Below, piece by piece: positions 8,101 through 39,797 of a stretch of 39,797 nucleotides of DNA (within the stretch, counting starts at the first letter, position 1; each line of letters begins with the position of its first letter). Origin of the DNA: a virus; the IMG/VR virus record IMGVR_UViG_3300043419_000725, positions 1 through 39,797 of that record. One strand, given 5' to 3'. The notes below the pieces were generated by a model. That model had not been told where the DNA came from and made no database searches. It saw only the letters and a program-made list of their open reading frames with translations. Position numbers and translations under genes: made by a program.

Positions 8101-11100
8101 CGGGCAAGAGCAAAGGCCATAGCACAAAGAGCAGCAGACTTGCCAAGTCAATCAAAGATGACGGTCCTAGAGCGTGTTGCAGATGCCGCAACAAAAACAG
8201 TGTCTGGAAAACTTCCTCCTACTGACTTTGGAAAACAAATTGCTCCATCATCTGGTTACAGTTTTAAAGAGGCATCTTTCATGGGTGGTCTTTATGAGAG
8301 GCCTGACGGCAAAAAAGTATTTGTAAAGCCAATGATGAGCGAACTAGATGCTATAGCAGAAAAGAGAGCAACAGACTTTGCCAGAGTTGTTCAGGGACTT
8401 GATACACCAGAACAAAACATTAAAACAATGATTGATCCTTCAGACCCACAAGGGAAGAGAAAGATAATTGTCCTAGAGTCTGAATTTAACAAAAACTTTG
8501 ACACAAAAAATATTCCAAAGACATTTACTCAGGAACAATATTTTAGACAGTTAGTGGCAGCAAACCTTCGTGGAGATAAAGATCTCAAAGCAGGAAACTT
8601 AGGCGGTAATATTTTAACTGATGTTGGACCTGCAGGAGTGTTTGATTCTGCCTCTGGAGAGAGAAAACTATCAAAGAAGATGCCATCTCTAGAGCAAATG
8701 GCAGAAGAAAACCTAAAGGGTCTTCCAGAAAAAAGTAAGGCAAACCCACAGAACTCTCCTAATTGGTTTGCAAATGCAACTAAGGATATTGCTTTAAATC
8801 TAACACCAGATCAATATCATAAAGCCATGAGAGATGAAATTAAAAGACAGATTTCTCTAATGGTCCCATATCTAGCAGATATGCCAGACAATGATCCACT
8901 AAAGCCTCAATACACTAAGATGTTAGCAAGACTTAGAGCAGGACTAAAGGTTGACTGGAAAAAGTTACATCAAAAGCATAGCAGTATCTTAGTAAAGCCT
9001 GATGAGGTTCAAGAAGATGCTAAGGGAAACACAAAGCCAATACCTACAGAACCAAACAATGGTAAATTCAAGTCTGACTCAGGAATAAAAGATACAAGAA
9101 TTGCTTCAAAGGAAGTTGAATCATCAGTACGCCAAAGACCTAGATTGCGTGGAAAGGCAAATGCTCCAGAAGCAATGTCAACAACCACAGCAGCAATTGT
9201 TGATGGAGCAAGAGGATCAGTTGCAGAAGCAAAGGCAGTTGGAGCAAATATTGGAACTACGCTTTCTCAATCAGCAGCAGCAGCCTCAAGAACAATGCTT
9301 TATGGAACTGGCCCAGTAGATGCTGATGCAAAATCATTGCGTCGTCAAATAGAAAAAAGACAGAGAGCAGAAGCAAAAACACAGGCAAAGGCCAATGCGT
9401 CTAAGACTGCACTCTATGGAACAACTGGACCAATTGACCCAGTTATGCGAGGCAGAAGAAAGCAGGCTGCACTAGAAGAAAAAAGAAGTAAGTTAGCAGC
9501 AAAGGTAGCATACCAGCAATCTGTTATTGATGCACGGGCTGCAGAAGAAGCAAAGAAGAGAACCCCACTTGGTAGAGTTAAGACATTTGTTGAAAACAGA
9601 GAAGCAAAGAGACAGGCAAAGATAGATGCAGGTAAGCGCCCAGGAATGGGAATGGGTGGTGCGCTTGGAATTGCATCTGGTGTAGCAATGATTGGATCCA
9701 TGGCTCCAGGTAAGGTTGGAGAAATTTCACAGAAAGTTATGATGCCATTGATGGGTCTTGCTATGATTCTTCCGATGCTCAAGAGTCCAATGGCTGCAGT
9801 AGCAATTGGTCTGACAGCAACAGTTGGATCTTTTGTGGCTCTAAGAATGGCTTTTGATAAAGCAGCAAATAAGGTTTTAGAAGAAAATGAAAAGTTTAGA
9901 GGTTCAAGTTCTGCAATAAATGAAATTGCAAAGTTTAGCGGTAAGGTAACAGCCTCAGAGCAAATGGATTTGAGAAGACAAAACTCATTCTCAATGCTTG
10001 GTGCAGCAACAGGAAAGACAACATACGGTGAAGCATTTATTCAAACCAAGGAAGGCAAGGCACTAACAGAAAGAATTTCACAGCAAAATGCTGCAGGCAA
10101 GGGAAATGTTGCAGCACAAGATCTTTCAGGTCAACTTTCTGCAGCAATAATGTCTGGTGCTATGGATATGGGTCAAGCAAAGAGTTTAGCAATGAACGCT
10201 GCAAGACAAGCAGGAGATATGTCTATTGGACTAAAGGTAATTGGACAACTAGAAACTCTCCTTGGTCCAAATGGAGAGAATCTAGAAAAAGATCCATACA
10301 ATGTTAGAATTAAAATGATTAATGATAATGCTACTAAAATGCAGGGCAGTCTTGACAATATTAAAAATGCCAACCCAATAACTAAGATGGCTGGACAAAA
10401 GACAGTTCAGATGGCTGGTATTGGTGCGTCAGCAGCAGGTGGGGCAGCAATTGGGGCAACACTTGGAGCAGCGCTAGGATCAGTTGTTCCAGTACTTGGA
10501 AACGCAGTTGGTGCAATTATTGGTGGTGGAATTGGCGCTGCAGCAGGAGCAATCGGAGGATACTTTGCTTCAAAGAAGTTCGCAGCCCAAGCAGGACAAC
10601 TTGGAGCAGCATATGCAGTAGATGCAAAAATTGCAATGGAACAAAATAAGCAAATGCTTGACTCTATGGATATGTACTATCAAAATAAGATTGAAGAACT
10701 TAAACTTCAAGGTAAGATCAATGAAGCACGAGAACTTGAAAATAAGTATTTAGGCGAAAAAGGCAAGATGGGAGAAAGAGATAAACTAACTGCAGCCCAA
10801 GCAAAAATGCAAGCAGACATAGTTTCTCAATACAACAGTGCTGGTGGCATGCAAGAGTCAATGATGAGCGGTATGAAGAAGGCTGTATCTGCAAAGTACA
10901 AGGATGATCCAAATCAGTTGGCTTATGTGGATGTTGTTAATACACAAGCAGGAAACCTAAGAAAAGACGGACTTATTGATAGTGGACAAGAGTTTTTAAT
11001 TCAGGCAAAGATGGCAAGCGGAGACATTCCTCCTGCAGTATTTAGAAGTCTATTAGGTATGGCAGCAGAGAATAAAGATATTGCTCCAAAGATGATGAAC

Positions 11101-13995
11101 ATAATTACTAAGTTTAGTGGAGCAACATCAGAGTCAATTGGTGTTGCAGCACAGAATATTCTTGGAGCAGATAAGGTTATTAATAAAGAGGTTCAAACTT
11201 CATTTATTACAAGAGTAGAGGCATTTGAAAAAGACTCTGATGCTCTTGACTTTACAAAGAACATAATCAAGTTAAATAATCTTAACGCAGTAATCCCATC
11301 AGATGTCATGGTCAGTTACTACACAGATCCAAAAAACAAAGAGCAGTATGAGAAACTAAACACAATGCTAGATGGAATTGAGGGCAAAAAAGATTTAACT
11401 GCAACTTTTGTTTATGAAATTATGCCAGAGGTTAAGGGAACTGCAGCATTTGATGAGGCATACTTTAACACCTTGACTGAAGATCAGCAAAAGGTTTATA
11501 CAACTACTATTGCATCATTAATTAATATTCCAGATCCACAAATTATTGAAAGTGAAGATTTTAAGGCATGGAGAAAAGAGAGTGGTCCACTTGGCGGAGC
11601 AGGCGTTACTGGAAGCAAGGCATATATAATTCAGAAGTATAAAGAGGCTCAGGGCCAAAAGGCTGTTGTTGATAATGTACAGGTAAATGCAAATGCTCCA
11701 GTAAGCACAGGAGGAGACAAAGGCGGGGGAAGTAAGGTAGAGTCCTCCCCATTGGATGATCTAGTAAAGAAACTGAGAGATGTAAGAAAGAACCAGATAA
11801 AGGTCACAGAAGGCTGGAGCGCCTCTCGTAAGGCCTTAGATAGCCTGTTTGGTGGCAAGAAGACCATAGATGTATTTAGCGGTATAGAGAACGATATCAG
11901 AAAATTGGGCGGTAGCCAAGACTTTATAGAAATGATTGTTGGCATGGATCCAAAGGAATACGAGAAGAGAAAGAACTCCCTGTTTAAGTTTGACAATAAG
12001 GGCAACATTATTGCACTAAAGAGAGATGCTAAAAATATTCAAGAGGCTATGAACTCAATTGCTATGGGTGACTGGAACTCTAGTATGGAAGCAGAGTCTA
12101 AGGCACTTGATGACCAGAGTAAGGCATTCAATAGAATAGCAGCACTTGGTGTTCCAGTAGCGAATGCATATGATTTAATAACTGATAAGACCATAGCGCA
12201 GGCAATTGCTAATGGAGTTAACGATAAAACATTAAAAACTTTGATTAGCAGATATAAAGGTTTGGCCGTAGCGCAAGAAAAGTCTGCAGCAATTCAAGCA
12301 ACAAAAACAGATATTGCTCAATTTAAAAAGGATAGGGTACAAGAGGACAGAATAAGAAGCAAGTATAGTTCAGAAACTGCTTTTGCAATTGGCTCTGATG
12401 AAAATCTAAAGGCAATGGAAAGCGCTATCGCTGCTCAGCAGTCAAGAGTGAACAGTTTAATTTCTAAGGGTGCCGACAGAGGTCAGATTATGGCTGCTCA
12501 AAAAGAACTAAATAGCATGATCTCTGACTTTGATGAGAGACTAAATCAGTTAAAGAATACTATTGGGTTTATGCAGGACATGTTTGACGAAGGTTTTGGT
12601 AATGCAATGGAAGCATTTGATGTTCAAGAAACCGCTCTTCAGATAAAGTTTAACTTAGACACCAAGGAAAGTGCAAAGATAATTGAAGAAGCACAGAACA
12701 CAATTGCTGGCATTCAATATAAAATTGATGACAAAGAAGCATCTCTCAAGGCTATTGAAGATCAAGAGCAAAAAATTAATGAAAAATATGATGAAAGAAT
12801 TAAGGCTTTAGATGAAGTAGAGAAGGCTAACGCTACAATTACTAATCAGCAAAGAGGGCAACTATCTCTTGCTGAAGCGCTAACCTCTGGAGATATTGCA
12901 GCAGCAGCAAGAGCAGCACAAGACATGAGAGCGCAGCAAGCAGCAGATGCAGTAACAAAACAAAAGGATGCAGTAGAACAGTCTAGACAATACGAACTTA
13001 ACTCTGTGAAGGCATATGACCCGACTACAAAATCTTATAGAACTAGAAAAGAACTAGAAGCAGACATTAAAAAACTTCAGGATGAAATCTTTGACCTTGA
13101 AGAAAAGAAGATAGAGCCAGCACAAGAGTTTATTCGCCTAAAGCAAGTACAACTAGATAAGGATGTTGAGAACTTAACTGTGCTTGGAAAGACAAGAGAT
13201 GCATGGGAAGCCATTAAGAATCAGGTAGACCTGGCTATGATTAACAGCAAGAAGTTTATAGAGTCAATGCAACTTGCTTTGAATACTCAAGGAAAACTAA
13301 TTCAGGGATACAATAATCAGCAAGCAAGTGGTAATGATCCAATTGTTCCTGCTGCTTATACTCCAGCCCCTGTGGTTCCTGGAGAAACTCCAGAGCAAAA
13401 GGCAGCAAGAGAAGCAGCAGATCGTGCAGCAAAGGCAGCAGCAGATAAAGCAGCAGCAGATGCTAAGGCAGCAGCAGAGGCCAAGGCTAAGGCAGATGCA
13501 GCAGCAGCAGAGGCTGCTAGAATTGCAGCAATCAATGCCAACATAAATGTTCCAAGTTTTCTTGCTTCACAAGAAAGTGGAGCAATTGGTGCAGCATCTA
13601 TAGCAGCAAAAATGGCAGCAGCAGTAAAGCCAAAAACAGCAGCAGAAATTGTTGCAGAAAGAAAAGCAAAGTACGGATATCTATCAAAGGGTGGATTCGT
13701 ACCTAAGTATTTTGCTGCTGGTGGTTTTGCAAAGGGTACAGATAGAATACCAGCAATGCTAACTCCAGGAGAGTTTGTAATGAGCAAGTACGCAGTAGAC
13801 TCATACGGAGTAGAAAATCTCAAAAAGATTAATAATGGCGATACACCTAGCGGAGCAGTGTATAATAATACATATACATTAACTGTTAACGCAAAGACAG
13901 ATGCTAATCCAAACGAAATTGCACAGGCAGTAATGGCAACAATTAAGCAGGTAGACGACAGAAGAATCAGGGGGATTGGAATAAATGGCAGATGA
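5161..13995 (+). CDS. Tape measure protein, very large, with central insertion
   Basis: The 2944-residue protein sets tail length and fills the tube. A TP901-type tape measure core lies at about 179-470. Hydrophobic segments follow at about 541-577, 1495-1565 and a glycine-zipper region near 1750-1806. Two copies of the family motif xPxMLTPGExV lie at about 681-691 and 2864-2873. The late part holds coiled coils (about 2500-2640), an Ala-rich TolA-like linker (about 2747-2790) and a compact C-terminus. Residues about 735-1290 form an insertion not typical of tape measures, part of which (1030-1290) resembles a kinase fold. I chose the ATG at 5161, preceded by AGAGGTG; the ATG 4 bases earlier is out of frame. 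The gene overlaps the next one by 11 bases. Confidence 0.92.
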   Translation: MADVQSNIHVNIDTSDALASLKLLQRQISAFHTQMAKSGTAAAAVSANQAQNLMNAINATGQFQASMRKVTTSTEHFTDALERNKLTSREYFRYTGAATKTFGRLFKSEFETINKVARERVKDIQTQYIKLGRGANGALESIAVRPLTLDMKNLGTQTAIAAQRQQLLNQLLKQGSTNLLNFGKNTQWAGRQLMVGFTIPLAMLGAQASKTFMAMEEQAIRFKRVYGEMFTTQEETDAMIKQIQTLAKEYTKYGVAVEDTMKMAADAAAMGKMGAELTAQVAQATRLAVLGGVEQTQALETTISVTNAFGVATEDLAKKIDFLNAVENQTVVSIEDLTIAIPKAGPVVQQLGGDVEDLAFFLTAMKEGGINASEGANALKSGLASLINPSKKASAFLKDLGVNITGIVEANKGDIKATVVGFAQALDTLDPLNRARAIEQLFGKFQFSRLSTLFQNVTAQGTQAQRVLGLTRATTEELAILSQRELDKIQNTTSYKFKKSMEDLKIALAPVGEQFLKALTPILEFVGKVLDKFNNLGDGTKKFLTVFTVAVAGIGPVLLMTFGLIANAAANIIKLFANMKSMYNRTGNASTVLGEQTNYLTKEQLEASAVAASLDQVHQKLRQTFTSETTAVNSLAAAYRRAIAAQAGFTGPVRGGGRTPGLKKYSTGTTEVPGSGSRDTVPTMLTPGEAVIPAKAAQDPANRPMIAQLIAGKRVQGFNGGTPEVTADGQTQKTHVGGKSEQKLISDIIKNNPFMGDDQKAKLRALEAILVSQGLKPTTATLHKLMFTFPASMNMSMSSGVGIPAQNFIDAWDKLGPNKWEASKISGAVADPFDKAMIEMIKQDLADKKITHVNDDYVKKIFTERIPAERPDIAKTAGYTQAEKLYNTSTQFLLGRGLGNTPEESRKILEDAVKKGAIKSFDIQEREGTGKTNAGKIVTGSATVTLNDGTVVNMNRLGSGHRVNISQDEKSQARSNAATERARAKAIAQRAADLPSQSKMTVLERVADAATKTVSGKLPPTDFGKQIAPSSGYSFKEASFMGGLYERPDGKKVFVKPMMSELDAIAEKRATDFARVVQGLDTPEQNIKTMIDPSDPQGKRKIIVLESEFNKNFDTKNIPKTFTQEQYFRQLVAANLRGDKDLKAGNLGGNILTDVGPAGVFDSASGERKLSKKMPSLEQMAEENLKGLPEKSKANPQNSPNWFANATKDIALNLTPDQYHKAMRDEIKRQISLMVPYLADMPDNDPLKPQYTKMLARLRAGLKVDWKKLHQKHSSILVKPDEVQEDAKGNTKPIPTEPNNGKFKSDSGIKDTRIASKEVESSVRQRPRLRGKANAPEAMSTTTAAIVDGARGSVAEAKAVGANIGTTLSQSAAAASRTMLYGTGPVDADAKSLRRQIEKRQRAEAKTQAKANASKTALYGTTGPIDPVMRGRRKQAALEEKRSKLAAKVAYQQSVIDARAAEEAKKRTPLGRVKTFVENREAKRQAKIDAGKRPGMGMGGALGIASGVAMIGSMAPGKVGEISQKVMMPLMGLAMILPMLKSPMAAVAIGLTATVGSFVALRMAFDKAANKVLEENEKFRGSSSAINEIAKFSGKVTASEQMDLRRQNSFSMLGAATGKTTYGEAFIQTKEGKALTERISQQNAAGKGNVAAQDLSGQLSAAIMSGAMDMGQAKSLAMNAARQAGDMSIGLKVIGQLETLLGPNGENLEKDPYNVRIKMINDNATKMQGSLDNIKNANPITKMAGQKTVQMAGIGASAAGGAAIGATLGAALGSVVPVLGNAVGAIIGGGIGAAAGAIGGYFASKKFAAQAGQLGAAYAVDAKIAMEQNKQMLDSMDMYYQNKIEELKLQGKINEARELENKYLGEKGKMGERDKLTAAQAKMQADIVSQYNSAGGMQESMMSGMKKAVSAKYKDDPNQLAYVDVVNTQAGNLRKDGLIDSGQEFLIQAKMASGDIPPAVFRSLLGMAAENKDIAPKMMNIITKFSGATSESIGVAAQNILGADKVINKEVQTSFITRVEAFEKDSDALDFTKNIIKLNNLNAVIPSDVMVSYYTDPKNKEQYEKLNTMLDGIEGKKDLTATFVYEIMPEVKGTAAFDEAYFNTLTEDQQKVYTTTIASLINIPDPQIIESEDFKAWRKESGPLGGAGVTGSKAYIIQKYKEAQGQKAVVDNVQVNANAPVSTGGDKGGGSKVESSPLDDLVKKLRDVRKNQIKVTEGWSASRKALDSLFGGKKTIDVFSGIENDIRKLGGSQDFIEMIVGMDPKEYEKRKNSLFKFDNKGNIIALKRDAKNIQEAMNSIAMGDWNSSMEAESKALDDQSKAFNRIAALGVPVANAYDLITDKTIAQAIANGVNDKTLKTLISRYKGLAVAQEKSAAIQATKTDIAQFKKDRVQEDRIRSKYSSETAFAIGSDENLKAMESAIAAQQSRVNSLISKGADRGQIMAAQKELNSMISDFDERLNQLKNTIGFMQDMFDEGFGNAMEAFDVQETALQIKFNLDTKESAKIIEEAQNTIAGIQYKIDDKEASLKAIEDQEQKINEKYDERIKALDEVEKANATITNQQRGQLSLAEALTSGDIAAAARAAQDMRAQQAADAVTKQKDAVEQSRQYELNSVKAYDPTTKSYRTRKELEADIKKLQDEIFDLEEKKIEPAQEFIRLKQVQLDKDVENLTVLGKTRDAWEAIKNQVDLAMINSKKFIESMQLALNTQGKLIQGYNNQQASGNDPIVPAAYTPAPVVPGETPEQKAAREAADRAAKAAADKAAADAKAAAEAKAKADAAAAEAARIAAINANINVPSFLASQESGAIGAASIAAKMAAAVKPKTAAEIVAERKAKYGYLSKGGFVPKYFAAGGFAKGTDRIPAMLTPGEFVMSKYAVDSYGVENLKKINNGDTPSGAVYNNTYTLTVNAKTDANPNEIAQAVMATIKQVDDRRIRGIGINGR
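9286..9438 (+). repeat. Imperfect LYGT-GP repeat inside the tape measure
   Basis: Two related 36-39-base segments, 9286-9321 and 9400-9438, encode SRTMLYGTGPVD and SKTALYGTTGPID, separated by a basic helical stretch. They look like an old internal duplication next to the kinase-like insertion. Confidence 0.5.
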
Positions 13996-34020: not shown

Positions 34021-34546
34021 AGATGATCTAGTTAAACACCTTGATCAAGTTAATCAAGTAGTAGAAGAATACCTAAAGGGAAATGATCCTACAATAATTT
34101 CAAAGCAGTTGTCAATTCCACGACAAAAGGTAGTCACACTTATTAATGAGTGGAAGGTCATGGCATCTGCAAACGATGCCATTCGTGCTCGTGCCAAAGA
34201 AGCACTTGCAGCAGCAGACACGCACTATAGCAAATTGGTTTCTCGCACATACGAAGTTATTGATGAGGCATCAATGACTAATAACCTTAGCGCAAAGACT
34301 GCTGCTATTAAACTTGTTATGGATATTGAGTCTAAAAGAATTGACATGCTACAAAAGGCTGGCCTACTTGAAAATAAAGAACTTGCTGAAGAGATGATGG
34401 AAATTGAAAAGCGTCAAGAGATTCTTGTTCTTATTCTAAAAGATATAGCCTCAGAATATCCTCAAGTTCGTGATGAGATTATGCGTAGACTTTCTGCATT
34501 TGCAAAAGACAATGAGGTGATTACAGTTGTCCACGATGTTCAATGA
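34010..34546 (+). CDS. Terminase small subunit
   Basis: The 178-residue protein has an N-terminal helix-turn-helix (about 15-50, DPTIISKQLSIPRQKVVTLI) and a long helical oligomerisation region (about 55-150). This is the layout of small terminases that recognise packaging sites. It directly precedes and overlaps the large terminase by 20 bases. Confidence 0.75.
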   Translation: MSAEDDLVKHLDQVNQVVEEYLKGNDPTIISKQLSIPRQKVVTLINEWKVMASANDAIRARAKEALAAADTHYSKLVSRTYEVIDEASMTNNLSAKTAAIKLVMDIESKRIDMLQKAGLLENKELAEEMMEIEKRQEILVLILKDIASEYPQVRDEIMRRLSAFAKDNEVITVVHDVQ

Positions 34547-36311
34547 GTTTCTTGAGGCACTTCAGGATGATCATTTTGAAGAGACACCCGTAGACGCAAG
34601 AACATTTGTTGAAGGCGAAGCATATCTGGGGCAGCCACCACTATCTGATATTCAGTACGATATTGTTGAGGCGATGAGCCAGATATATCGTAAAGAAGAT
34701 CTAATCAACATAATGGGCGAAGAGAAGGGGGTTCAGTACTACAATAAGTACACAAAGAATGAAATCATCCTGCAACTTGGCAAAGGATCTGGAAAAGACT
34801 TTACTTCAACCGTAGCATGCTCATATATCGTATATAAACTATTATGCTTAAAAGACCCAGCAAAGTATTTTGGTAAGCCCTCTGGAGATGCTATTGACCT
34901 AATCAATGTTGCTATTAACGCACAACAGGCAAAGAATGTTTTCTTTAAAGGATTTAAATCAAAGATTGAAAGATCTCCGTGGTTTGCAGGAAAGTATAAT
35001 GCAAAAGCAGACTCTGTTGAGTTTGATAAATCAATCACTGTCTATTCTGGTCACTCAGAAAGAGAATCACACGAGGGTTTAAACCTTCTGCTTGCAGTAC
35101 TTGATGAGATTTCTGGTTTTGCATCTGAGGTTGGAACAGGCAATGAGCAGGGAAAGACTGCTGACAATATCTATAAGGCTTTCCGTGGATCAGTAGACTC
35201 TCGCTTCCCTGACTTAGGCAAGGTAGTTCTTCTATCATTTCCAAGATATCCAGGCGACTTTATTTCAGAAAGATATGATGATGTTGTTGCTGAAAAAGAA
35301 GTTATAGAAAGAACACATAAGTTTGTAATTAATCCATTACTTCCAGAGGATAACCCAGACAATACATTCGAAATTTCGTGGGACGAAGATCAAATCACAT
35401 CATACAAATACCCAGGGGTGTTTGCATTAAAGAGACCTACATGGGAAGTAAACCCTACACGAAAGATTGATGACTTTATGATTGCATTCATGACTGACCT
35501 TGGCGATGCAATGATGCGCTTTGCATGTGTTCCAACTTTTGCTTCCGATGCATTTTTTAAACAGGCAGATAAGGTAAGAGCCTGTATGACATTAAGAAAC
35601 CCTGTGGATACATTTAAAAGATTTGATGAATCGTTTAAGCCAGATCCAACAAAGAAATACTATGTTCACGCTGACCTTGCACAAAAGCATGACAAGTGTG
35701 CGGTAGCAATTGCACATGTAGAAAAATGGGTAAACATACAAGTAATTAATAATTACGAACAGGTAGCACCAATAGTCGTAGTAGATGCAGTAGCATGGTG
35801 GGAACCAAAGGTTGAAGGTCCAGTTAACCTTTCAGAGGTTAAGCAATGGATTCAAAATCTTAGAAGACTTGGGTTTGATATTGGAATGGTTTCCTTTGAC
35901 CGTTGGCAATCATTTGATATTCAGAATGAATTAAAGCAGGTTGGAATGAGAACTGATACTGTTTCTGTTGCTAAGAAACATTATGAAGACATGGCCATGC
36001 TTGTATATGAGGAAAGACTTGCAATGCCAGCAATCGAACTTTTGTTTGATGAACTAACACAGTTAAAGATTATGAAAAATGACAGAGTTGACCACCCACG
36101 CAAAAAGTCAAAGGACTTGGCTGATGCTGTATGTGGAGCAATATTTGGGGCAATATCACATACCCCAAAAAATATAGACACTGAAGTAGAGGTTCATACT
36201 TTTAGGGATAGACCTAAGCCAGTTGACGAACTACCAGAGAATGTGATACACTATAACTCTAGCCAGATAGAAGAGATAAAAGACTATTTGGATAGACTAA
36301 AAACACTATAA
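34527..36311 (+). CDS. Terminase large subunit
   Basis: The 594-residue ATPase-nuclease packages the genome. Walker A is at about 85-91 (GKGSGKD), Walker B at about 190-194 (AVLDEIS). The nuclease part includes D383 (YVHADLAQKHD) and the late KKSKDLADAVCG. The TTG at 34527 is chosen with GAGGTGA 6 bases upstream; an ATG at 34536 would be spaced badly. Its 3' neighbour is a secreted protein, not the portal, which is unusual. Confidence 0.9.
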   Translation: MSTMFNEFLEALQDDHFEETPVDARTFVEGEAYLGQPPLSDIQYDIVEAMSQIYRKEDLINIMGEEKGVQYYNKYTKNEIILQLGKGSGKDFTSTVACSYIVYKLLCLKDPAKYFGKPSGDAIDLINVAINAQQAKNVFFKGFKSKIERSPWFAGKYNAKADSVEFDKSITVYSGHSERESHEGLNLLLAVLDEISGFASEVGTGNEQGKTADNIYKAFRGSVDSRFPDLGKVVLLSFPRYPGDFISERYDDVVAEKEVIERTHKFVINPLLPEDNPDNTFEISWDEDQITSYKYPGVFALKRPTWEVNPTRKIDDFMIAFMTDLGDAMMRFACVPTFASDAFFKQADKVRACMTLRNPVDTFKRFDESFKPDPTKKYYVHADLAQKHDKCAVAIAHVEKWVNIQVINNYEQVAPIVVVDAVAWWEPKVEGPVNLSEVKQWIQNLRRLGFDIGMVSFDRWQSFDIQNELKQVGMRTDTVSVAKKHYEDMAMLVYEERLAMPAIELLFDELTQLKIMKNDRVDHPRKKSKDLADAVCGAIFGAISHTPKNIDTEVEVHTFRDRPKPVDELPENVIHYNSSQIEEIKDYLDRLKTL

Positions 36312-36330
36312 AAATAAGGAGAAATACCGA

Positions 36331-37470
36331 ATGAATTCATTCAAGAAAATCGCACTAGCCGTGGTTGCAGCCATGACTTTGGGCATGGTCGCAGTAGCAC
36401 CTGCAAATGCTACAGTAATGACAGTAGCAGTAACGCTAGATGGAACAGCAAACACCACTAATGGTGTGCTTGCTACACCTGCTACACTGCCAGTCCCAGC
36501 AGATAACACAATCGATGCAGCAGATGCACTACGCTTTGTAGCAACAGTAGCAGCAGGAACATCAGTTACTGCAGTAGCAACTAACGCAACAATCGTATCA
36601 GCACTACACACATCAGCAGCACCAGTCGGAGCATCGTCAGGATCATCATCTTTGACAATTGCAACAGGCACTGGAACAACTGCAACATTCTTTGTCTACA
36701 CAAAGACAACAGCAATTGGCACAGTTGTAATCAACAACGGTGGAACAACTCTTACATACTATGTACAGGGAACTGCTGGCAAGATTAACAACCTAACAGT
36801 TTCAGCACCTACATCAGGTGCAGCAGGAACAAAGCAGGATATCACAGTAACTGCAACAGATACATTTGGAAACAAGGTATCAGGAAAGTCAATTACTGCA
36901 ACAGTATTTGCTTCAACAGCAGTACTAGATACAGCAACTGCAACAACTGGTGCTACACTAACAGATTTTGGAACAGCGACCTTCAAGGCTACTCTTCCAA
37001 CAACTGGTTCACGAGCACTTATCACATTTGCTCCAACAACATCATCAGATGCAACTTCTGCAGATGTAGTTGGCTTGACTGCTCGCACACTTGCACCATT
37101 CGCAGAGATTGCAGTTCGTGATCTAGTATCAGAACTCGCTGCTCAGACTGCTGCAAAGGATGCAGCACTTGCTGCTAAGGCAGTTGCAGATGCTGCAGTT
37201 GTAAAGGCTGCTGCGGATGCAGTGGCTGCTAAGACTGCCTCAGATGCTGCTATTGCAGCAGAGAAGGCTGCTTCTGCAAAGGCACTTGCTGATGCAAAGG
37301 TTGCTTCAGATAAGGCACTTGCCGATGCAAAGGTTGCACACGATGCAGTCGTTGCTAAGTTGACTGCAGATAATGCAGCAGCAATCAAGTCACTAAAGGA
37401 TGCTTTCAACAAGTTGGCTCGCCAATGGAATGCAAAGAATCCAAAGGCTAGAGTTACACTAGTCAAGTAG
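36331..37470 (+). CDS. Secreted Ig-like protein with Ala-rich coiled coil
   Basis: The 379-residue protein begins with a typical signal peptide (about residues 1-27, ending APANA). A Thr/Ala-rich beta region follows (about 28-250) with at least one Ig-like domain (KINNLTVSAPTSGAAGTKQD). An Ala/Lys coiled coil with 11-residue units (about 260-365, KALADAKVASD twice) comes next, then a basic C-terminus. It has no LPXTG or membrane anchor. AAGGAG lies before the ATG. It resembles surface or S-layer-type proteins of low-GC actinobacteria, so I infer export and attachment to the host envelope. It is placed between terminase and a strong terminator. Confidence 0.8.
   Translation: MNSFKKIALAVVAAMTLGMVAVAPANATVMTVAVTLDGTANTTNGVLATPATLPVPADNTIDAADALRFVATVAAGTSVTAVATNATIVSALHTSAAPVGASSGSSSLTIATGTGTTATFFVYTKTTAIGTVVINNGGTTLTYYVQGTAGKINNLTVSAPTSGAAGTKQDITVTATDTFGNKVSGKSITATVFASTAVLDTATATTGATLTDFGTATFKATLPTTGSRALITFAPTTSSDATSADVVGLTARTLAPFAEIAVRDLVSELAAQTAAKDAALAAKAVADAAVVKAAADAVAAKTASDAAIAAEKAASAKALADAKVASDKALADAKVAHDAVVAKLTADNAAAIKSLKDAFNKLARQWNAKNPKARVTLVK
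37279..37344 (+). repeat. Tandem 33-bp repeat in the coiled-coil region
   Basis: Two adjacent 33-base units (37279-37311 and 37312-37344) encode KALADAKVASD and KALADAKVAHD. Eleven-residue periodicity fits a hendecad coiled coil. Confidence 0.75.
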
Positions 37471-37477
37471 TTTGAGT

Positions 37478-37508
37478 CCTGGTGGGCGAAAGCCCACCAG
37501 GGTTTACT
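37478..37508 (+). terminator. Rho-independent terminator with GAAA loop
   Basis: Positions 37478-37487 pair perfectly with 37492-37501 (10 bp, G/C-rich) around a GAAA loop. It begins 8 bases after the secreted protein stop and ends 7 bases before the sulfotransferase ATG. The following T-tract is weak (GTTTACT). Confidence 0.8.
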
Positions 37509-38270
37509 ATGAAACCAATTTATTTTAACCACATACCAAGAACTGGCGGAACCACACTATCCAGAATGCTACACAACTCTGGAATCAATAGGTGTGGTTT
37601 AAGTGTTTTTACCCCAGAAATATCTTCTAGTAAAGATAAAGGGTTTAACAAAACAAATATATCTGAAAGCCATCTAGTTATGGGTCATTATGGTATTGCC
37701 CCATCAATATTTAATCCAGACATAGAAACAGTTACCTTTTTGCGAAACCCCATAAACCAAGTAGTTAGTATGTTTGCTAAACTAAACTATGAAAGTCAAA
37801 CCTCAAGCCAAAATGCAAGGATCTTTGAACTGTTTAGACTTAGCAAATTCAGTAATGATCCAGCAAATCTTTTTAGAGAGTGGCTCTATGATGAAAGGGC
37901 AGCAGAGTATACGAATAATGGGCAGATATATAATCTAATCAATACAAGATACCCATATTTATATGATCCTAAAACAGGTAAAGGTATAGATCGAGAGACA
38001 CAGATTTTTGTAACAGAACAAAATGCAAAAGAAAAGATAGAGTCACTGCTGTTTTTGGGAACTACAGAAAATATATACAGAGGTTATACGCAAATAGTGG
38101 ATACCATAAATAGTAGGTTTGGGGTTAGCCTTAATAAACTTCAAAAATCTGGAGTTTATAACAGCATTAATGAAACAAAGGATGTATTAAATACATTAAG
38201 CAAGTCAGAGAGAGACTATATTTTAGAAAAAAATAGCATAGACAACCACTATTGGGAAAAGGCTTTGTAG
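37509..38270 (+). CDS. Sulfotransferase-like P-loop enzyme
   Basis: The 253-residue protein has HIPRTGGTTLSRML at residues 8-21, a 5'-phosphosulfate-binding loop of the sulfotransferase type, and VTFLRNPINQVVSMF about 70 residues later, the 3'-phosphate-binding motif (RxP with a following Ser). It probably transfers sulfate from PAPS to a sugar, lipid or peptide. The usual Lys of the loop is Arg here. I start at the ATG at 37509; an in-frame GTG lies inside the terminator. No signal peptide is seen, so it would act in the cytoplasm or on lipid-linked precursors. Confidence 0.75.
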   Translation: MKPIYFNHIPRTGGTTLSRMLHNSGINRCGLSVFTPEISSSKDKGFNKTNISESHLVMGHYGIAPSIFNPDIETVTFLRNPINQVVSMFAKLNYESQTSSQNARIFELFRLSKFSNDPANLFREWLYDERAAEYTNNGQIYNLINTRYPYLYDPKTGKGIDRETQIFVTEQNAKEKIESLLFLGTTENIYRGYTQIVDTINSRFGVSLNKLQKSGVYNSINETKDVLNTLSKSERDYILEKNSIDNHYWEKAL

Positions 38271-38288
38271 CAAGACGCATTCTTTGCA

Positions 38289-38317
38289 GGGATGGCCAGA
38301 TGCCACCCTTATTTTTA
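38289..38317 (+). terminator. Probable terminator after the sulfotransferase gene
   Basis: GGG and TGGC (38289-38296, with one bulged A) pair with GCCA and CCC (38302-38308) around a five-base loop, followed by TTATTTTTA. The stem is short but the T-rich tail is good. Confidence 0.6.
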
Positions 38318-38327
38318 TGCAATAAAA

Positions 38328-38336
38328 TGGTATAAT
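38328..38336 (+). promoter_or_regulatory. Extended -10 promoter (TGGTATAAT)
   Basis: TGG and a perfect TATAAT at 38331-38336 follow the terminator by 10 bases. The predicted start near 38343 lies at the foot of a small hairpin in the leader. No -35 box is seen. Confidence 0.65.
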
Positions 38337-38344
38337 CATCCTAT

Positions 38345-38359
38345 CAGACATCCAGTCTG
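38345..38359 (+). other. Hairpin at the 5' end of the leader
   Basis: CAGAC (38345-38349) pairs with GTCTG (38355-38359) around a five-base loop, starting about 2 bases from the predicted transcript end and stopping just before the AAGGGGG ribosome site. It may protect the 5' end of the message. Confidence 0.4.
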
Positions 38360-38374
38360 CAAGGGGGAAGGCAA

Positions 38375-39797
38375 ATAAAACGAACACTACGCATAGTAAC
38401 AGCGACAGTTTTGGCCTTTGGATGGCTTTTTACATCCCCTACAGAGGCTCATTCTGACGACCCACTAACAGTTGCAGCAGGAAAGATCCAAAACCTCAAT
38501 AGCGCAGTAGATAAATTAGACTATAAAGATGGTCTAATAAGTCTAATTGACATAGCAGAAAACAAGTTTATGTATGCTAAAAATCTGCGGGATATCAGGG
38601 ATGAAGCAATTGCAGATTATGAAGATGCAGTAGAGGCAGAAGAGTTAGCCTTAGAGGAAGTAGAATTAGCCCAGTCAAATGTAGATGGTCAGACAGCCAC
38701 AGTAGCCTTAGCCCTTGAGAATAGGGATAATGCATTTCAAGACAAGAACGATGCACAGGATGCTCTCAATATAGCCAATATTAATCTTCAAACCACACAG
38801 TCTAATATGCAGTCTGCTGGTGGATCAGGACTTCAGTATACTGTTTATAATTTAACCAGAACATGGCCAAGCATAGCAACTCCAAGTGGTGTAATTTGTT
38901 CTGGCACTTGGAATTCAAGTTCTATGAATCTACCAGTTTGCGGTAATAGATATGAGAATATAATTGTTAAGTTTACTGGACAAATAACAGTTCCATCATG
39001 GTTTACAACAGTAGCATTTGCAGGATACACAGATGATGGTTTTAGAATGTTTATTGATGGAAACCTTGCAGTTAACAACTGGGTAGAGCAGGGAGCAAGA
39101 TGGAGTGCTTGGTCTCCAACATATGATGTAAGCGAAGACAAGACCTTCGATGTAGAGATATGGTGGTATAACGGAGGAGGTCCAGGATCCTATCATCTTG
39201 GATGGACCATTCCTGGTGGAATGACTGGTGCAGGCTGTGACTATTCTGGAGAGCCAAGAGTATGGGGACAAAATTTTAGTTGTAACTTAAATACATTCTC
39301 ATCTGGATCAGGACCAACACAGTCAGAAATAGATGCATATAATCAAGCACTTGCTACACGAAATGCAGCACAACAAGATTATAATAATGCCTTATCAGAA
39401 TATAATGATAAGTTAAATGTATACAACCAGGAAGTCGCAATGCTAAACTCCTTGAATCAAACACTAATAAACAAAGAATCTGAATACGACAACGCAGTAA
39501 ATGATACAGCAGATGCCTTATCTGAAAAGAACAATGCTATTAATGATTTTGATAATGCTATTAATGATGTCAATAGCGCAATTGATGATGCATGGCGTTA
39601 CTATGATGAGCAGATGCAACGAGAAATCCAAAGAGCCATTGCTCAGGCAGCAGCAGCAGCCGCAAACCAGCCTAAGCCAGAGCCTTCACCAAAGCCTACT
39701 GTTGAACCAGAAAAGCCAAAGCCTTCTACACCACCAACAGATAAACCAGAGCCAAAGCCAACTAATGTTACTGGAACAGAAGAGCCAGGTCCAAAGC
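38375..39797 (+). CDS. Secreted PA14-like protein with coiled coils (partial)
   Basis: The frame is open for 474 codons and runs off the window. The N-terminus is a signal peptide (basic KRTLR, hydrophobic core, then PTEA). A coiled coil follows at about 30-145. A PA14-like beta domain (about 155-305) has FAGYTDDGFRMFIDG, FDVEIWWYNGG and four Cys. A second Ala/Asn-rich coiled coil (about 318-430) and a Pro/Glu/Lys tail suited to crossing a cell wall come last. No ATG, GTG or TTG precedes the signal peptide in frame. The best start is ATA at 38375, 7 bases after AAGGGGG. PA14 domains bind carbohydrates, so a surface or adhesion role is inferred. Confidence 0.75.
   Translation, partial: MKRTLRIVTATVLAFGWLFTSPTEAHSDDPLTVAAGKIQNLNSAVDKLDYKDGLISLIDIAENKFMYAKNLRDIRDEAIADYEDAVEAEELALEEVELAQSNVDGQTATVALALENRDNAFQDKNDAQDALNIANINLQTTQSNMQSAGGSGLQYTVYNLTRTWPSIATPSGVICSGTWNSSSMNLPVCGNRYENIIVKFTGQITVPSWFTTVAFAGYTDDGFRMFIDGNLAVNNWVEQGARWSAWSPTYDVSEDKTFDVEIWWYNGGGPGSYHLGWTIPGGMTGAGCDYSGEPRVWGQNFSCNLNTFSSGSGPTQSEIDAYNQALATRNAAQQDYNNALSEYNDKLNVYNQEVAMLNSLNQTLINKESEYDNAVNDTADALSEKNNAINDFDNAINDVNSAIDDAWRYYDEQMQREIQRAIAQAAAAAANQPKPEPSPKPTVEPEKPKPSTPPTDKPEPKPTNVTGTEEPGPK

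Follow-up and report, generated by a model that had tools for sequence, protein, structure and literature searches.

A divergent phage sulfotransferase gene and its letter-identical upstream hairpin as a candidate accessory cassette

What does a protein of 253 amino acids do that is encoded behind the terminase and a secreted-protein gene of a bacteriophage, and how may its gene be controlled? The stretch of DNA that raises this question, hereafter the window, comprises 39,797 nt (IMG/VR virus record IMGVR_UViG_3300043419_000725, positions 1 to 39,797), and the gene occupies 37509..38270 of its + strand, from an ATG start to a stop codon. A sequence-only reading had proposed a phage-encoded sulfotransferase and had located its motifs correctly, HIPRTGGTT corresponding to residues 8-16, LRNP to residues 78-81 and the serine to residue 87 (residues 78-87 read LRNPINQVVS). 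Based on motifs, profiles and a predicted fold, the parts of the protein are assigned here as the 5'-phosphosulfate loop (residues 8-16), a putative catalytic His60, the 3'-phosphate motif R79...S87 and E187. Relatives of the gene were found on 11 viral contigs, which yielded five more distinct proteins, 64-83% identical, and, with that of the window, six distinct alleles. Among these, pairwise dN was 0.09-0.31 and dS mostly 0.6-3.5 (saturated in one pair), with values of 0.092 and 0.801 for the window and relative L001; as dN/dS is well below 1 across six alleles, the open reading frame (ORF) is more than a chance one and is a genuine gene under purifying selection. The ATG at 37509 is its likely start, because the in-frame GTG at 37482 falls within the hairpin described below and the frame is broken in relative L009, which has one base fewer. 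The named phage collection held no relative of the protein, the plasmid search gave weak matches only, annotated as sulfotransferase family 2, and no relative was detected in genome contigs by two specific peptide patterns, which distant host relatives could escape. Phage sulfotransferases as such are already known, and the protein adds a divergent new member to them.

Taken singly, the sequence stays below every curated cut-off in Pfam, NCBIfam and PHROGs, the latter two giving no match at all. In Pfam, Sulfotransfer_1 (E 0.069) and Sulfotransfer_3 (E 0.25) came up below cut-off together with unrelated matches that were equally good, hmmscan of the single sequence gave no match to PF03567 (curated score 22 bits), a genome-wide profile search gave none either, though its controls stayed silent as well, and the PDB search returned chance matches only. 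Further viral proteins were gathered by a DNA pattern for the PAPS loop, which many matched, and alignment A3 was composed of 30 of them, excluding the own family (15 with lysine and 15 with arginine in the loop); 27 of its members match PF03567 at E<=0.01. The A3 profile aligned to the six alleles with an hhalign probability of 98.6 (E 1.4e-15, 177 columns) and, when three phage sequences were scanned with it, picked out the window protein (E 1.5e-19, 66.9 bits). As A3 and the joint profile A4 (30 rows, namely the six alleles and 24 further viral proteins) were collected via the loop motif, the loop's share of their scores is circular; this does not apply to the alignment outside the loop, and that of A3 to the alleles extends through the LRNP...S and TEN motifs. 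Searched against the PDB, A4 found HS6ST3 (1.5e-10), HS2ST (1.2e-6) and also cytosolic sulfotransferases. The AlphaFold model obtained with A4 (pLDDT 81.7, pTM 0.81; residues 148-163 unreliable) superseded a prediction from the six close alleles alone (pLDDT 42.9) and takes the fold of the sulfotransferase superfamily; a different P-loop family, the outcome that would have spoken against the sequence-only reading, was not seen. Among solved structures (VIA), HS2ST ranked top (Z 13.9 over 207 residues, rmsd 3.5-3.6), followed by HS6ST (Z 12.8 and 12.3), with other sulfotransferases at Z 9.8 and below, StaL and the SULTs at about 8, P-loop kinases at 7.5-8.0 and tyrosylprotein sulfotransferase at 7.4; Foldseek gave E values of 1.8e-4 for HS2ST and 3.0e-4 for HS6ST; the best viral structure match was an uncultured phage protein named 'Sulfotransferase family' (E 5.3e-13, 25% identity). 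Profile-profile comparison, PDB profile search, a confident model and structure search thus support the proposed identity, and the predicted enzyme class is with high probability that of a PAPS-dependent sulfotransferase of the Sulfotransfer_2 or heparan-sulfate 2-O/6-O type. The protein is called here related to PF03567 and working like that family, rather than a curated member of it.

Within A4, 30/30 rows agree at H8, P10, T12-T15, R79 and S87, E187 is found in 28/30 and H60 in 26/30 (6/6 alleles, 20/24 others). The loop HIPRTGGTT follows the pattern P-K/R-T-G-G-T in 6/6 alleles, R79 and S87 align to the corresponding positions of HS2ST and HS6ST, and in the profile alignment the H60 column coincides with the second histidine of the HS2ST 'HGH', the position of the catalytic base. 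The loop lysine of HS2ST is presumably residue 83, and counted from there the aligned histidine becomes His142. The phosphosulfate-binding residues, whose loss had been named as evidence against a sulfotransferase, are kept in the six alleles. For HS2ST, the H142A mutant is described in an excerpt of the respective report as losing activity (PMC6094399). The arginine that replaces the common lysine of the loop had been singled out beforehand; the letter is correct, its being remarkable is not, for 50 of 66 related viral proteins carry lysine and 16 carry arginine. This count comprises distinct complete proteins from a pattern allowing both residues; the own family, identical duplicates and incomplete ORFs were removed beforehand, as were ORFs <120 aa. 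Arginine in the PAPS loop is hence ordinary. As the protein begins seven residues ahead of the loop and has no leader, a cytoplasmic site is expected for it, and neither a signal peptide nor a membrane anchor was recognised by eye.

The genomic setting was approached via the terminase large subunit (34527..36311, + strand), which is 55% identical at the amino acid level to that of Streptomyces phages of the Stanwilliamsviridae. Because of this relationship the host would be sought in the Actinomycetota; acI bacteria, strains of which are described in an excerpt of PMC5301498 as devoid of assimilatory sulfate reduction, are a guess. Directly behind the terminase lies the gene of a secreted Ig-like/Ala-rich protein (36331..37470, + strand; 379 aa, signal peptide judged by eye), so that the sulfotransferase gene was rightly said to follow a secreted protein. 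In the lineage, the gene after the terminase encodes a secreted protein, of several types, in 40/40 recA-centred loci judged, these being the 40 of 80 in which the terminase was read to its end plus at least 200 nt behind. The end of the secreted gene was readable in 17 loci, 16 of which show, by eye, a GGGG...CCCC-type stem and then a T-run, the remaining one being cut off. The sequence TGCAATAAAATGGTATAAT follows this terminator in many relatives without the gene and also follows the sulfotransferase gene in the window, so that the cassette occupies the interval from the stop codon of the secreted gene to this sequence, in the place of the terminator. The secreted protein is thus lineage-wide and the sulfotransferase a rare insert behind it. 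In a second branch (G007, terminase 58% identical), secreted gene, hairpin and sulfotransferase stand together 12.6 kb behind the terminase, and in 12/12 records, the window included, the three occur together at two genome positions, preceded by either of two secreted-protein types of 43% identity. Carriage of the sulfotransferase as an accessory cassette consisting of hairpin and gene is accordingly probable. Where the secreted gene behind the terminase was read (L279-L358), it varies strongly in type, at about 35-96% identity to that of the window, as if by diversifying exchange. Records L002 and L006 agree at 99-100% along about 1 kb of the secreted gene, less so in the flanking genes, and at 59-90% per 100-nt stretch of the sulfotransferase body, which points to a recent exchange bounded close to the hairpin.

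Two further neighbourhoods were recorded. Behind the sulfotransferase, the window holds a secreted protein with a PA14 domain (38375-39797, open end), the same gene being found in 24 loci, some of which share a contig. Its start seems to be ATA (window, L001, L003) or ATT (others), with a strong GGGGGAA ribosome site and a signal peptide in frame; upstream, no in-frame ATG, GTG or TTG occurs before a stop, and downstream the first one lies 11-111 codons on or beyond the stretch read. Near the cassette of L006, a secreted protein judged by eye to resemble a subtilase, with no Pfam support (10247-11224), and an Ntn-hydrolase-like protein of the proteasome family (PF00227; 9558-10082) are encoded.

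Between the stop codon of the secreted gene and the ATG, the window carries a 35-nt element, TTTGAGTCCTGGTGGGCGAAAGCCCACCAGGGTTT (37471..37505, + strand), which has the same letters in the six alleles, whereas four-fold sites of the sulfotransferase gene agree only to 0.38-0.73 in the same allele pairs. It contains a perfect 10-bp GC-rich stem with a GAAA loop (37478-37501, + strand). The stem stops 7 nt short of the ATG, overlapping a Shine-Dalgarno-like AGGG. An exact 32-mer of the element was found in all 11 viral contigs with the gene and in no other viral contig, and in 9/9 records the element is single-copy when up to 3 mismatches are allowed; the unit of the cassette is hence hairpin plus gene, and the element occurs only with the sulfotransferase gene. 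The 22-nt hairpin had no exact match in genome contigs, a search that distant host relatives could escape, and a relaxed stem pattern hit 44 contigs, the other 33 of which have different loops and contexts and are mostly GC-rich. The fold energy amounts to -21.8 kcal/mol for the stem alone (z -6.3) and to -27.1 kcal/mol with flanks, values as low being reached by no shuffle, and the window has no other GC-rich perfect stem of 10 pairs. Rfam returned no relevant match for 36300-39797, where two sub-threshold matches fell into the Ala-rich coding repeat. The stem is as stable and GC-rich as that of an intrinsic terminator, yet GTTTACT or GTTTTTAT instead of a proper T-run stands directly behind it and the consensus terminator scan does not report it, so that the upstream hairpin is no canonical terminator. 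On the other side of the gene, an imperfect hairpin with a T-run, its stem followed by TTATTTTT (about 38288-38317, + strand), is the probable sulfotransferase terminator; the segment 38262-38325 has an MFE of -17.9 kcal/mol (z -2.2), and this terminator, too, is absent from the list of the scan. The claim that the gene is isolated by terminators is accordingly no more than partly right.

As to the sulfate donor, 8/9 related records encode an APS-kinase-domain protein (PF01583 above cut-off) of ~250 aa, and also DUF2061 genes; the one remaining record is the window, whose sequence stops 1.5 kb past the sulfotransferase. The PF01583 match covers model positions 3-91 of 152 only and includes NxDLGF...R, which we take to be the APS kinase (CysC) signature, the NCBIfam apsK score of 61.5 is below its cut-off of 138.7, and the match of the kinase portion to human PAPS synthetase 1 has a value of 9.6e-11. 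The C-terminal part is NMNAT-like by profile (2.6e-5), which lends no support to an ATP sulfurylase at this end, and a fusion with such a domain may possibly use another nucleotide substrate; as a family it corresponds to PHROG 10255, annotated kinase. The fusion and the sulfotransferase gene are 3.4 kb apart in G007, compared with 11 kb in G004. ATP sulfurylase and PAPS reductase/CysD were not found in 7 records, so that APS would need to be of host origin. That the kinase is specific to sulfotransferase phages was ruled out, at least 592 contigs carrying the fusion. Of these, 80 loci were kept, 19 of which hold sulfotransferase-like ORFs at E<1e-6 (16/77 with the own family removed), most of the 80 being without a sulfotransferase nearby. 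Thirteen of the 19 matches lie within 1.5 kb of the kinase where 4.9 are expected; several of the loci are nearly identical to one another, and manual grouping into types leaves 8/13 and a p of ~0.007. No sulfotransferase-like ORF was found at E<1e-3 in the 80 recA-centred loci (933 kb), which are close kin (96-99% recA identity) and whose flanks end short of the position of the window gene, nor in 33 unrelated loci (313 kb) drawn from other phages; Fisher's test of kinase against recA loci gave p 5e-6, a value that overstates independence given how closely the recA loci are related. Out of ten kinase-adjacent ORFs, seven match a Pfam sulfotransferase family at E<=0.01, only one of them above the curated cut-off, and three have no such match. 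A DUF2061 gene stands near the APS-kinase/NMNAT-like fusion in 72/80 loci (L009:10214-10969, L197-L276), and G007 carries a second, different sulfotransferase-like ORF at ~108.7-109.7 kb on the minus strand (L147; A4 profile E 2.3e-12).

The explanation preferred for the locus as a whole, at a probability of roughly 0.6, is a cytoplasmic PAPS-dependent sulfotransferase in a hairpin-controlled accessory cassette. To the motifs, predicted fold, purifying selection, insert position and hairpin invariance observed above, it adds a course of events which we infer: the sulfotransferase gene would share a transcript with the secreted-protein gene before it, the hairpin over the ribosome-binding site would hold down or regulate translation of the enzyme, and PAPS would come from the host or via the phage's own APS-kinase-like protein. 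The enzyme might then sulfate the precursor of a glycan of the envelope or of one attached to the secreted protein. This would have to be a cytoplasmic precursor because the enzyme has neither signal peptide nor anchor by eye, as would that of any glycan whose sulfation might hide receptors, the proposal of the sequence-only reading, and an altered surface of the infected cell might, for example, block superinfection; confidence in these last two steps is low. Taken by itself, control of translation or transcription by the hairpin has an even chance of being right, a substrate in the envelope or at the surface a chance somewhat short of even, and the foremost guess is that envelope glycans are sulfated as a defence against superinfection.

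Control by the hairpin competes with two other functions of the same element. It may merely be the intrinsic terminator of the secreted-protein gene, with the sulfotransferase being read by leak-through, a reading that suits the stable GC-rich stem (-21.8 kcal/mol) with its GAAA loop right after the stop codon and the terminator which relatives have at the same spot. The short T-run and the silent terminator scan argue against it, as does an identity of letters across diverged alleles exceeding what termination needs, while other strong hairpins vary (those of G004 and G007 have other sequences, several with true T-runs); this makes it possible, if somewhat doubtful. Less likely again is a joint at the DNA level for cassette exchange, for which the contrast between L002 and L006 (secreted gene ~99% identical, sulfotransferase body 59-90%) and the two genome positions of the cassette would speak, and to which it is opposed that the element stands only before the sulfotransferase (11/11 contigs) and nowhere else in 9 records.

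Other accounts concern the enzyme itself. It would be rather unlikely that it modifies a phage product instead of host glycans, in the simplest case the upstream secreted Ig-like protein (on a side chain or glycan) or else a tail protein: the linkage of secreted gene, hairpin and sulfotransferase in 12 records, at two positions and with two secreted types, fits such a target, but the secreted gene occurs throughout the lineage, in most cases with no sulfotransferase, hence its product is not in need of sulfation, and the fold resembles carbohydrate enzymes (Z 12-14) more closely than tyrosylprotein sulfotransferase (Z 7.4). Sulfation of a small molecule (antimicrobial, nucleotide or lipid) in place of a polymer is a little less likely still; the superfamily has such enzymes, and StaL and SULTs are among the structure matches, clearly poorer ones however, at Z ~8 as compared to 12-14 for HS2ST and HS6ST. 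That the protein is no active sulfotransferase at all and represents a degenerate or repurposed P-loop protein would agree with its position below all curated family cut-offs, and is very improbable in view of the PAPS-loop and 3'-phosphate residues in 6/6 alleles, of purifying selection and of sulfotransferases coming first in the structure search.

Compared with the sequence-only reading, the hairpin plus gene unit, the rare insertion behind a lineage-wide gene and the APS-kinase neighbourhood are additions. Beyond the preferred cytoplasmic sulfotransferase in its hairpin-controlled cassette, a far-reaching and rather improbable extension can be conceived, in which a large actinobacteriophage-like group would have its own sulfation programme, the APS-kinase fusion providing PAPS and interchangeable sulfotransferases redecorating the envelope, here under an invariant, sequence-specific RNA switch that replaces a terminator. 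If this were true, the switch would time sulfation to a set moment or to synthesis of the secreted surface protein. The letter-identical hairpin offers a handle on control of the sulfotransferase gene. Sulfotransferases of OM43 phages are described, in an excerpt, as auxiliary genes whose role is stated as unclear (PMC10580990), and the link of the phage APS-kinase fusion with diverse sulfotransferases is a testable route to that role.

Among known systems, sulfotransferase auxiliary genes have also been reported, again according to an excerpt, from glacier-ice viruses (PMC8290583), and the OM43 genes are stated to be Sulfotransfer_3, unlike the window protein (PMC10580990). Excerpts of both reports mention neither a donor-gene link nor a hairpin (PMC10580990, PMC8290583), and no description of the present variant, an invariant hairpin cassette with a kinase neighbourhood, was found in the literature searches made. 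The 'sulfotransferase family' proteins of phages and giant viruses (BFVD A0A6J7WKC8, Synechococcus phages S-SCSM1 and ACG-2014f, Prochlorococcus phage P-SSM7) are alike in fold and in being of the accessory-gene kind, and different in sharing, among the matches listed, 25% identity at most. The Stanwilliamsviridae (StarPlatinum, Karimac) share the order of DnaE, RecA, Cas4-like and RuvC-like genes before the terminase, whereas StarPlatinum has HNH and tRNA genes behind it with neither a secreted protein nor a sulfotransferase annotated within the 8 kb examined. With the heparan sulfate 2-O- and 6-O-sulfotransferases (PF03567), finally, the protein has in common the fold, the PAPS loop, an R...S pair eight residues apart, the Glu of the 'TE' motif and a His at the position of the HS2ST catalytic base; it differs from both in being borne by a bacteriophage, in its length of 253 aa, in the loop Arg instead of Lys, in falling below the Pfam cut-off when taken singly and in having, by eye, no membrane anchor or signal peptide.
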